From positions 1 through 43,174 of the forward strand of contig NZ_FNOG01000017.1 in assembly GCF_900106525.1 (NCBI RefSeq): a stretch of 43,174 nucleotides of DNA, given 5' to 3'. A model generated the notes under the pieces. It had not been told where the DNA came from. It saw nothing but the letters and a program-made list of their open reading frames with translations, and did no database searches. Origin of the DNA: Lysobacter enzymogenes (GTDB lineage: Bacteria; Pseudomonadota; Gammaproteobacteria; Xanthomonadales; Xanthomonadaceae). Below, piece by piece: positions 1-43,174 of the stretch. The translations under genes were made by a program, and so were the position numbers. Position 1 is the stretch's first letter; each line of letters starts with the position of its first letter.

Positions 1-27
1 CGAACGCCGGATCGAGCGCCTGATAAG
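1..27. repeat. 27-base direct terminal repeat, left copy
   Basis: Bases 1-27 are identical to 43148-43174. In the minus-strand reading both copies encode YQALDPAF and keep the same frame, in the stretch after the A5 motif of a Thr-type A domain. The length looks like an assembly overlap or a shared k-mer between two near-identical modules. Confidence 0.97.
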
Positions 28-41700: not shown

Positions 41701-43174
41701 AAGCCGGCGAGCGCGTCGGTCCAGTAAGCGATCTGGCGCGCCGACCAGGAGCCGGCATCGGCGGGATCGCCGAGCGCGTCGCGCTGCCACAGCGCGTAGT
41801 CGGCGTACTGCAGCGGCAGCGGCGCGAACGCCGGCGCGCGGTCTTGCTGGCGCGCGGCATAGGCCTGGCCGAGATCGGCCGCGAGCGGCGCCAGCGAAGC
41901 GCCATCGGCGGCGATGTGGTGCATCAGCAGCAGCAATACGTGGCGTTGCGGCGCAAGCGCGAACAGCGTGGCGCGCAGCGGCGCTTCGCGGCTCAGGTCG
42001 AAGGCGTAGTCCGACGCGGCGGCGAGCGCGGCGGCGAGTCCGGCGTCCTCGCAGCCGACGCGGCGCAGCTCCGGCGCGAACGCGTCGAGCACGCGCTGGC
42101 GCGGCGGCCGGGCGTCTTCGAATACGGTACGCAGGCTTTCGTGGCGCGCGCAGACATCGGCGATCGCGGCCTGCAGCGCGGCGAGGTCGAGTTCGCCTTC
42201 CAGGCTCAGCGTCAGCGGAATGTTGTAGGTCGCGCTCGGGCCTTCGAAACGGTGCAGGAACCACAGCCGCTGCTGCGCGTAGGACATCGGCAGCGCATCG
42301 GGACGCGAAGGCAGCGGCAGCAACGGATTGCGCGCGCGTTCGCTGTCGCCCAGACGGCGGGCGAGGGCGTCCACGGTGCGCGCTTCGAACAGCACGCGGA
42401 TCGACAGTTTCAGGCCGAACTCGGCGCGGATGCGGCCGATCAGCCGGGTCGCCAGCAACGATTGGCCGCCGAGCTCGAAGAAGTCGTCGTCGATGCCGAC
42501 GCTGTCCAGACCGAGGACCTCGGCGAACAACTCGCACAACGCGGCCTCTTGCGCATTGCGCGGCGCGCGCTCGCTGGCCGCGACGTGCTCCGGCGCCGGC
42601 AGCGCCTTGCGGTCGAGCTTGCCGTTGGCGGTCAGCGGCAGCGAGGCAACCGCGACGAACGCGGCCGGCACCATGTAATCGGGCAGGTGCTCCAACAGAC
42701 CGCGGCGCAGCGCGGTCGCGTCCAGCTCGGGCGCGACGATGTACGCCACCAACTGCTTCTGTCCGCTGCGGTCCTCGCGGTCGATGACCGCGTTGTAGGC
42801 ATGCCCGAGCTTGGCCAGCGCCGCCTCGATTTCGCCCAGCTCGATGCGGAACCCGCGGATCTTGACCTGGTGGTCGGCGCGGCCGAAGTAATCCAGCTGC
42901 CCGTCCTCGCGCCAGCGCGCAAGGTCGCCGGAGCGGTACATGCGCTCGCCCGGCGCGAACGGATTGGCGACGAAGCGCGACGCGCTCAGGCCCGGACGGC
43001 GCAGATAGCCGCGCGCCAGACCGGCGCCGGCGACGTAGAGTTCGCCGACCACGCCCGGCGGCACCGGCTGCAGGCCGGCGTCGAGCACGTACACGCGCAG
43101 GTCGTCGAGGCCGCGGCCGATCAGCGAACGGTTGCCGGCGCCGGCGACGAACGCCGGATCGAGCGCCTGATAAG
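17751..43174 (-). CDS. lesA: Giant NRPS, lysocin-type LesA (modules 1-7), 5' end cut by window edge
   Basis: Cytoplasmic multimodular peptide synthetase that builds the first seven residues of a lipodepsipeptide. The frame is open from the right edge to a TGA at 17751-17753, giving 8473 visible residues. It enters mid-A domain, so the true start, starter C domain and most of A1 lie outside. Visible order: A(partial)-T, C-A-T-E, C-A-T, C-A-T, C-A-MT-T-E, C-A-T, C-A-T-E. Every C and E domain shows HHxxxDG, every T domain GGxS and every A domain an A10 lysine. T domains before E read GGDSI, and those before C read GG(H/Q)SLLA. There is no TE; the protein ends in the linker after the last E domain, so the chain must pass to the next gene. 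The predicted residues x, D-basic, Ser, Gly, D-N-MePhe, Leu, D-basic equal lysocin E residues 1-7. NRPS identity is certain; the lysocin assignment rests on my reading of codes and domain order. Confidence 0.95.
17778..17781 (-). promoter_or_regulatory. Weak ribosome binding site for lesB inside lesA
   Basis: On the minus strand GGAA lies at -11 to -8 from the ATG at 17770. It is weak and sits within the last codons of the upstream gene, so lesB expression probably depends on ribosomes finishing lesA. No other in-frame ATG precedes the first C-domain motif. Confidence 0.4.
19879..19922. repeat. 44-base exact repeat in A domain 7 (copy 2)
   Basis: Exact match to 15285-15328, in an A domain of different specificity (basic versus Glu-like), so the shared tract lies outside the substrate pocket. 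Confidence 0.9.
22435..25569 (-). other. LesA module 6: C-A-T, Leu predicted, unusual A10
   Basis: Residues 5868-6912. DCL-type C domain ([11 protein letters not shown]), fitting a D residue upstream. A domain from about 24210; pocket D,A,M,L,I,G,A,I,C,K comes from [24 protein letters not shown] and [12 protein letters not shown], a hydrophobic pocket best read as Leu. The A10 motif reads [13 protein letters not shown], one residue longer than in all other modules (about 22715-22750). T reads [16 protein letters not shown] at about 22550-22605. Leu6 is the second fixed residue of the menaquinone-binding pattern. Confidence 0.82.
25570..31439 (-). other. LesA module 5: C-A-MT-T-E, D-N-methyl-Phe predicted
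   Basis: Residues 3912-5867, the longest module. LCL-type C domain ([10 protein letters not shown]) with a 10-residue insertion after its first motif. A domain from about 30020; pocket D,A,W,T,I,A,A,V,C,K comes from [24 protein letters not shown] and [12 protein letters not shown], which differs from the GrsA Phe code only at V330. A methyltransferase sits between A8 and A10. T reads [16 protein letters not shown] (about 27150-27200). E has [10 protein letters not shown] (about 26600-26630). Together these give D-N-MePhe, as in lysocin E residue 5 and in WAP-8294A2. Confidence 0.92.
27440..28675 (-). other. N-methyltransferase domain embedded in A domain 5
   Basis: About 410 residues inserted between the A8 region ([11 protein letters not shown]) and the A10 region ([14 protein letters not shown]). 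The SAM-binding motif [15 protein letters not shown] lies at about 28406-28450, followed by [13 protein letters not shown] and a [12 protein letters not shown] segment, the usual layout of NRPS N-methyltransferases. It methylates the backbone nitrogen of the Phe bound to this module. It is the only methyltransferase in the window. Confidence 0.93.
31440..34599 (-). other. LesA module 4: C-A-T, Gly predicted
   Basis: Residues 2858-3911. LCL-type C domain ([10 protein letters not shown]). A domain from about 33205, A3 at 32690-32740. Pocket residues D,I,L,Q,L,G,L,I,W,K come from [26 protein letters not shown] and [12 protein letters not shown], a known Gly code. T reads [16 protein letters not shown] at about 31560-31615. 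Gly at this place is the first fixed residue of the menaquinone-binding pattern G-x-L-x-x-x-W. Confidence 0.88.
34600..37764 (-). other. LesA module 3: C-A-T, Ser predicted
   Basis: Residues 1803-2857. The C domain is DCL type ([11 protein letters not shown]), as expected after an E domain. The A domain begins near 36395, A3 is at about 35877-35930, A10 at 34870-34910. Pocket residues D,V,W,H,V,S,L,V,D,K come from [25 protein letters not shown] and [12 protein letters not shown]; this is the classic Ser code. T reads [16 protein letters not shown] at about 34720-34775. Confidence 0.9.
37765..42314 (-). other. LesA module 2: C-A-T-E, D-Arg (basic) predicted
   Basis: Residues 287-1802. The C domain is LCL type ([10 protein letters not shown]). 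The A domain starts near 40945, with A3 at about 40430-40480 and pocket residues D,T,E,D,I,G,A,V,D,K from [23 protein letters not shown] and [12 protein letters not shown]. The acidic residues E239 and D278 suit a cationic side chain. T (GGDSISS) is at about 39275-39325. E ([10 protein letters not shown] at about 38730-38765) inverts the residue to D. Lysocin E has D-Arg at position 2. Orn or Lys cannot be excluded from the code alone. Confidence 0.82.
42315..43174 (-). other. LesA module 1 remnant: C-terminal A domain and T domain (Thr1 inferred)
   Basis: Residues 1-286 of the visible protein. The segment starts [13 protein letters not shown], just after the A5 region, so the specificity pocket is missing except the A10 lysine ([12 protein letters not shown], about 42595-42635). 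The following text [13 protein letters not shown] is typical of A domains whose A5 motif reads [12 protein letters not shown]. The T domain has [16 protein letters not shown] at about 42445-42490. Thr as substrate is inferred from the 27-base identity with the Thr12 module and from lysocin E, not read from a code. Confidence 0.7.
43148..43174. repeat. 27-base direct terminal repeat, right copy
   Basis: Identical to bases 1-27. It is where the visible part of LesA begins. Inside from it the sequence continues as [17 protein letters not shown], whereas inside from the left copy the reading frame carries the upstream half of the A domain. Confidence 0.97.

Follow-up and report, generated by a model that had tools for sequence, protein, structure and literature searches.

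The question raised by this locus is which peptide is assembled by its two large genes, and whether, as an earlier note made from the letters alone had claimed, these genes are the lysocin (les) cluster or a close relative of it. The window, by which is meant the whole 43,174-bp stretch of DNA that was analysed, is the complete contig C23 of a 6.26-Mb Lysobacter genome in 23 contigs, with a GC content of 70-76% in 2-kb steps. Its minus strand is filled by two nonribosomal peptide synthetase (NRPS) genes, named here gene A and gene B, which overlap by 20 bp. The NRPS line is of a known kind, and the window is very probably the middle of the lysocin synthetase, with the outer parts of the line lying on contigs C6 and C21 of the same genome.

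Layout of the line and its assignment to lysocin

When the parts on contigs C6 and C21 are included, the line has 43 domains, namely 12 condensation (C), 12 adenylation (A), 12 thiolation (T) and five epimerization (E) domains, one N-methyltransferase (NMT) and one thioesterase (TE). Two proteins, 9,235 and 6,471 residues long and with a combined mass of 1.702 MDa, carry them, if the GTG at L009:14031 is taken as the start of gene A. The genes and the parts that complete them are as follows.

17751..43172, minus strand: gene A (LesA-like), with the remainder of A1, T1 and modules 2-7; 8,473 residues in the window, 5' end open
2..17770, minus strand: gene B (LesB-like), with modules 8-11, C12 and the first part of A12; ATG at 17770, 5,923 residues in the window, 3' end open
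L009:14031-16340, end of contig C6: 5' part of gene A, with the starter C domain and the first part of A1
L026:3-1673, start of contig C21: 3' part of gene B, with the second half of A12, T12 and the TE

The published LesA and LesB comprise 12 modules with 43 domains, at a size of 1.7 MDa (part of PMC5339274), and the module order and domain types in a published table of lesA-B are equal to the layout found here (part of PMC9581180). Compared by published description, no difference was found from LesA/LesB of Lysobacter sp. RH2180-5, which agrees in its 12 modules, its 43 domains and 1.7 MDa, its E domains at 2, 5, 7, 9 and 10, its single NMT at 5 and its residue codes; the two may be the same strain or cluster. 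The twelve-module line of the earlier note holds when contigs C6 and C21 are counted. Twelve complete modules in the window alone are rejected, as the window lacks the starter C, the TE, T12 and one half each of A1 and A12, which are on those two contigs.

The domains read in the window, all on the minus strand, are listed in the order of the line.

42486..43174, minus: C-terminal part of A1 and the A1-T1 linker; 3 differences from the start of contig C21 (A12) over 689 bp
39573..40937, minus: A2, code DTEDIGAVD (Arg)
37773..39152, minus: E of module 2
36420..37739, minus: C3, DCL type, HHLLLDG
34953..36380, minus: A3, code DVWHVSLVD (Ser)
31848..33194, minus: A4, code DILQLGLIW (Gly)
28503..30014, minus: A5, code DAWTIAAVC (Phe)
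27303..28532, minus: NMT domain of module 5, LEIGVGSG
25653..27032, minus: E of module 5
24225..25541, minus: C6 domain, DCL type, HHILLDG
22842..24197, minus: A6, code DAMLIGAIC (Leu)
19638..21008, minus: A7, code DTEDVGCVD (Arg)
17793..19229, minus: E of module 7
16436..17746, minus: C8 domain, DCL type, HHILLDG
15047..16405, minus: A8, code DVWHIGSIG (Glu)
11879..13237, minus: A9, code DAWQFGLIQ (Gln)
10043..11446, minus: E of module 9
8717..10006, minus: C10, DCL type, HHILMDG
7274..8659, minus: A10, code DAAIIGEIW (Trp)
5468..6904, minus: E of module 10
4130..5431, minus: C11, DCL type, HHILLDG
2738..4075, minus: A11, code DAYFWGVTF (Ile/Val)
980..2341, minus: C12 domain, LCL type, HHIAGDG
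1..961, minus: N-terminal part of A12, from the WNGAA linker, code DFWNVGMVH (Thr); 2 differences from the end of contig C6 (A1) over 961 bp

The arrangement that the earlier note had described is borne out by domain matches, with E domains after modules 2, 5, 7, 9 and 10; the TE follows module 12. The sole NMT is in module 5 (motif LEIGVGSG), as had been claimed. Short matches to the NMT reference in the modules of A6, A8 and A11 (49-57 residues, 20-28 bits) were left out of the count, because the reference includes an A-domain tail. The motif classes of C domains distinguish DCL from LCL types. HHLLLDG, HHILLDG or HHILMDG is found in the C domains of modules 3, 6, 8, 10 and 11, which are also the five that score best against the C domain of module 8 (itself the reference), and these are read as DCL because of their motif class and their place after E domains. 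DCL domains at exactly these positions had been proposed, and the six other C domains in the window (modules 2, 4, 5, 7, 9 and 12) read HHIAADG or HHIAGDG. In the five E domains the motif is HHLAVDG or HHYAVDG, and in the starter C on contig C6 it is HHAIMDG. The remaining motifs are intact, with the T serine in 12 of 12 domains, the E motif in five of five and GWSLG in the TE.

Pocket positions are numbered as in GrsA. Each A domain was aligned to A5, which matches 1amu and other NRPS structures by sequence, and its nine-letter code was taken from pocket positions placed by motifs. The reading was calibrated on lines of relatives that were assigned to WAP-8294A (WAP) or WBP-29479A1 (WBP) by layout, not by strain chemistry; of the genomes concerned, G006 is L. 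antibioticus 13-6, G014 is Lysobacter sp. Root690 and G021 is Lysobacter sp. yr284. The codes claimed for Ser3, Gly4, Phe5, Leu6, Gln9, Val/Ile11 and Thr12 were all recovered, and codes fitting Thr1, Arg2, Arg7, Glu8 and Trp10 are present beyond that list. A1 and A12 have the identical code DFWNVGMVH. The codes of A2 and A7 equal those at positions 2 and 7 of the WBP-type lines of G005 and G006 (Arg in WBP), that of A6 equals WAP-type position 6 (Leu), and that of A8 has eight of nine letters as at WAP-type position 8 (Glu). The A10 code is that of position 10 in the WBP-like line of G280 (Trp in WBP), with only five of nine letters as at WAP-type position 10, and A11 has seven of nine letters in common with the Val codes of relatives. 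All 12 pocket codes are consistent with lysocin. The codes of A4 (Gly), A6 (Leu) and A10 (Trp) satisfy the motif Gly-X-Leu-X-X-X-Trp of the menaquinone-binding antibiotics, of which lysocin is the founding type (PMC12447380).

Taken together, the order, number and type of the domains, the size of the proteins and the 12 codes support the les cluster or a close relative. The WAP and WBP lines, the nearest known, do not match what was found. Domains and pockets that agree at 12 positions, in open frames as long as 8,473 and 5,923 residues, cannot realistically be put down to chance.

Nonetheless, several points weigh against the assignment. A9 is without an orthologue among the lines compared and the A10 protein shares only about 54% identity with its position-10 equivalents in relatives, therefore Gln9 and Trp10 are read from their pocket codes, as is Ile/Val11. 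The residues given for the Thr, Gln and Ile/Val codes follow general background on such codes. The match to LesA/LesB was made at the level of published layout, size and codes; the contig order is drawn from a repeat, and the absence of menaquinone genes, described below, was judged on two families only.

The line might instead make a lysocin analogue, unlike lysocin E at one or two positions, for which 9, 10 and 11 are the likeliest candidates. The A9, A10 and A11 proteins are only 52-56% identical to their best matches in the relatives compared, and A12 (and so A1) 46%. The Gln9 code ends in Q, where D is usual. Lysocin B has Val11 (part of PMC9581180). Such an analogue is unlikely, given that the A10 code recurs at position 10 of the WBP-like line, that A11 shares seven of nine letters with Val codes and that the other positions fit.

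Probable contig joins and the A1/A12 repeat

Both ends of the window fall within an A domain, the start inside A12 and the end inside A1. The first 400 bases are 100% identical, as rounded, to the last 400 of contig C6, with one difference, and the last 400 are likewise 100% identical, as rounded, to the first 400 of contig C21, again with one difference; an exact 27-bp overlap is common to the two window ends. The les line would then be split over three contigs, for which the simplest order is C6, C23 (minus strand), C21. An alternative in which C23 forms a circle of its own, and C6 and C21 meet in a gene of one module, is unlikely, as such a circle would hold nothing but NRPS modules and be without starter C and TE.

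A1 and A12 differ at five positions in about 1,623 bp (two in 961 bp on the N-terminal side and three in 689 bp on the C-terminal side, with 27 bp shared). The near-identical block begins at WNGAA, in the linker between C and A, and extends as far as FFELGG in the T domain. Outside it, similarity needs only one or two 60-bp steps to reach background, C1 and C12 being unlike, as are T1 and T12. Both contig breaks lie inside this repeat and have the 27-bp terminal overlap, as would be expected if the near-identity or the contig layout were an assembly artefact. However, the four half-copies on three contigs carry the five differences, the flanks are unlike and in published lysocin residues 1 and 12 are both Thr, which makes an artefact highly improbable. 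Because A1 and A12 are nearly identical, short-read assemblies are likely to cut the line there, as happened here, and cluster miners may see three fragments. One survey of Lysobacter was limited to assemblies whose contig N50 reached 80% of genome length or more; in the part of the source available, no lysocin cluster is among its six characterised ones (PMC11451712).

Related synthetases and the copying of A domains

A starter C match at E <=1e-85 was found in nine of 395 family genomes (drawn from a larger group) and an NMT match at E <=1e-100 in eight of 20 genus genomes, own genome included in both counts. Among 14 named loci, the NMT domain search gave 85% identity for Root690 and yr284, 69% for L. 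antibioticus 13-6 and 57% for Dyella silvatica; the other ten gave 43% or less, or short segments only. The les layout is absent in the other eight genomes with a starter C match, as far as they were read: both genes whole in G023 and G280, gene A and a short gene B in G005, gene A only in G006, and the rest in part. This genome adds one more for the study of the apparently rare lysocin line.

The relatives are of two types. In published descriptions, the WAP line has an E domain in module 11 and a second NMT in module 12, and the WBP line has 11 modules (part of PMC9581180). A second NMT lies about 31 kb from the first in G007, G014, G021 and G023, and the line of G008 ends NMT-T-TE like the WAP type, although only one of its NMTs passed E 1e-100. 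Gene A is of the WBP type in G005 and G006, and the line of G280 is WBP-like with 11 modules. In position-by-position best matches, A2-A8 have counterparts in the relatives at 81-90% DNA identity; in WAP-type G023 these are limited to A3-A8, because its position 2 has an Asn code, and A3 reaches just 76%. A1, A9, A11 and A12 are without a close counterpart at their own position and A10 has only a distant one.

These counterparts (A2-A8 in the WBP type, A3-A8 in G023, about 75-90% DNA identity) are what would speak for a WAP-8294A or WBP-29479A1 synthetase, an identity that has hardly any probability left. The WAP type (G023 whole; G007, G014, G021 and G008 in part) shares the 12 modules in two genes and Ser3, Gly4, NMePhe5, Leu6, Glu8 and Trp10, as read in G023, but differs in having Ser1, Asn2, Orn7, Asn9, Orn11 with an E domain, and NMeVal12 with the second NMT; G023 thus has other codes at 1, 2, 7, 9, 11 and 12. 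The second NMT would sit on contig C21 between A12 and T12, where there is none, and WAP-8294A is rejected, its E11, second NMT and residues Ser1, Asn2, Orn7, Asn9, Orn11 and Val12 not being found here. The WBP type (G006, G005 and G280) shares the A2-A8 counterparts and, in G005 and G006, identical A2 and A7 codes. It differs by its 11 modules (published, and whole only in G280), by Val1 and Val9, for which G280 has Val codes, and by a ring closed on the fatty acid (PMC12447380). WBP-29479A1 is likewise rejected, as 11 modules with Val1, Val9 and Aba11 do not describe this line. The starter C is 55-56% identical to that of the WBP type and 43-47% to that of the WAP type.

Some of these lines have features of their own. 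In G005 the WBP-type gene B stops after C8-A8-T8 (L063:350-4060; G005:C1 ~3205349-3209059), no further NRPS domain was found in frames of at least 700 residues over the ~19 kb downstream, and the line looks truncated. In G280, from another genus of the family (L086-L089, C1 ~3175507-3219611), the A7 code is nearer to WAP-type Orn than to WBP-type Arg and the A11 code is odd; its product may be a new analogue. The third A domain of G008 (L093, C1:3101000-3115999) is not close to the Ser domains of other WAP-type lines, and its product may be different. Lysocin E genes have been reported in L. antibioticus Hz25 (part of PMC13163355), a label that may be a nearest-match call, as gene A of strain 13-6 is WBP-type.

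Near-identical A domains within one line are also found among the relatives. In G280 the A1/A9 pair has 98.3% identity over 1,326 bp and in G023 the A1/A3 pair 95.1% over 1,368 bp, and the blocks end at about the same places as in the A1/A12 pair. NRPS engineering makes exchanges at joints such as a WNATE linker motif and the FFxxGGxS motif (parts of PMC11546977 and PMC12668312), and the copied blocks would represent natural exchanges at about these joints. In three of the four WAP-type lines with both domains read, A1 and A3 resemble one another more than either resembles its counterparts in other genomes (95.1% in G023, 89.4% in G007 and 90.4% in G014), with small margins in G007 (89.4 against 89.0 and 88.2) and G014 (90.4 against 89.0 and 88.2); G008 is the exception, its third A domain not being close to A1. 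That A1 is a recent copy did not hold for all relatives, since besides G008 no close copy of A1 was found in L. antibioticus 13-6 (best second match 82% over 816 of 1,371 bases) and the WAP-type gene A of yr284 lacks modules 2 and 3. G005, which stops after module 8, was left out of this comparison. In yr284, module 1 is followed by module 4 (L091, G021:C32:1192600-1207599), which is either a deletion by A1/A3 recombination or an assembly collapse. Other pairs for the same residue are not close: A2/A9 78.6% and A7/A11 72.6% in G023, and A2/A7 72.1% in the line studied here.

Replacement of an A domain without its C domain, also between modules of one cluster, is known for mcyB1/mcyC of microcystin (part of PMC2174460), and has been described as a main route of NRPS diversification (part of PMC7486941). 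No report of A-domain copying for lysocin, WAP or WBP was found in the open-access literature, where no search was aimed at that question alone. We tentatively propose, as a scenario that is doubtful in its entirety, that the core A domains A3-A8 of the Lysobacter menaquinone-binder family stay in place while the chain-starting residue is rewritten by copying the WNGAA-FFELGG block from one module to another within a line, module 1 being one of the two. The A1/A12 copy of lysocin would have put Thr at position 1; through its side-chain hydroxyl the ring, closed on the fatty acid in WAP and WBP, would have come to be closed on the peptide. Copying might continue in some lines, keeping the module-1 copies near-identical, and could delete modules, as yr284 may show.

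Proposed biosynthesis, immunity and neighbouring genes

In the proposed pathway, the starter C domain would put a 3-hydroxy fatty acid, branched in lysocin, on Thr1, and the twelve modules would build Thr-D-Arg-Ser-Gly-D-N-MePhe-Leu-D-Arg-Glu-D-Gln-D-Trp-Ile/Val-Thr, the E domains inverting residues 2, 5, 7, 9 and 10 and the DCL-type C domains accepting the D residues. The terminal TE is predicted to release the chain and close the ring, in lysocin onto the side chain of Thr1; the published lysocin ring closes on Thr1, and the WAP and WBP rings include the fatty acid (parts of PMC12447380 and PMC9581180). The product would bind menaquinone in target membranes, which is how lysocin, an antibiotic already known, kills bacteria. 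The producer may itself be immune by lack of menaquinone, with which two results are consistent: no MenD above the cut-off was found in the genome (best 68 bits against a cut-off of 244.2, exceeded in seven of 14 control genomes), and the futalosine-route family PF02621 had no match in the genome (matched in four of 14 control genomes).

Two neighbouring genes probably belong to the line, as its MbtH partner and as an exporter that precedes gene A.

C21:1736-1891: MbtH gene, after gene B
L009:12116-13954: ATP-binding cassette (ABC) exporter gene, just upstream of gene A

Upstream of the transporter gene and gene A, four consecutive genes lie at L009:7852-11111, three without a Pfam or NCBIfam match and one with a weak AAA_22 match. 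Downstream of the lysocin genes, contig C21 encodes an A-T-reductase protein of 1,028 residues with a thioester reductase domain (L026:11249-14335). A single minus-strand frame at L026:8166-10682 has a methyltransferase domain followed by an aminotransferase class V/cysteine-desulfurase-like domain. Many more NRPS-like matches are seen on contigs C6, C8 and C12 (for example C8:114-365 kb, C12:580-590 and 813-853 kb, and C6:48-64 kb) and, judging from these matches, the genome holds several other NRPS lines.

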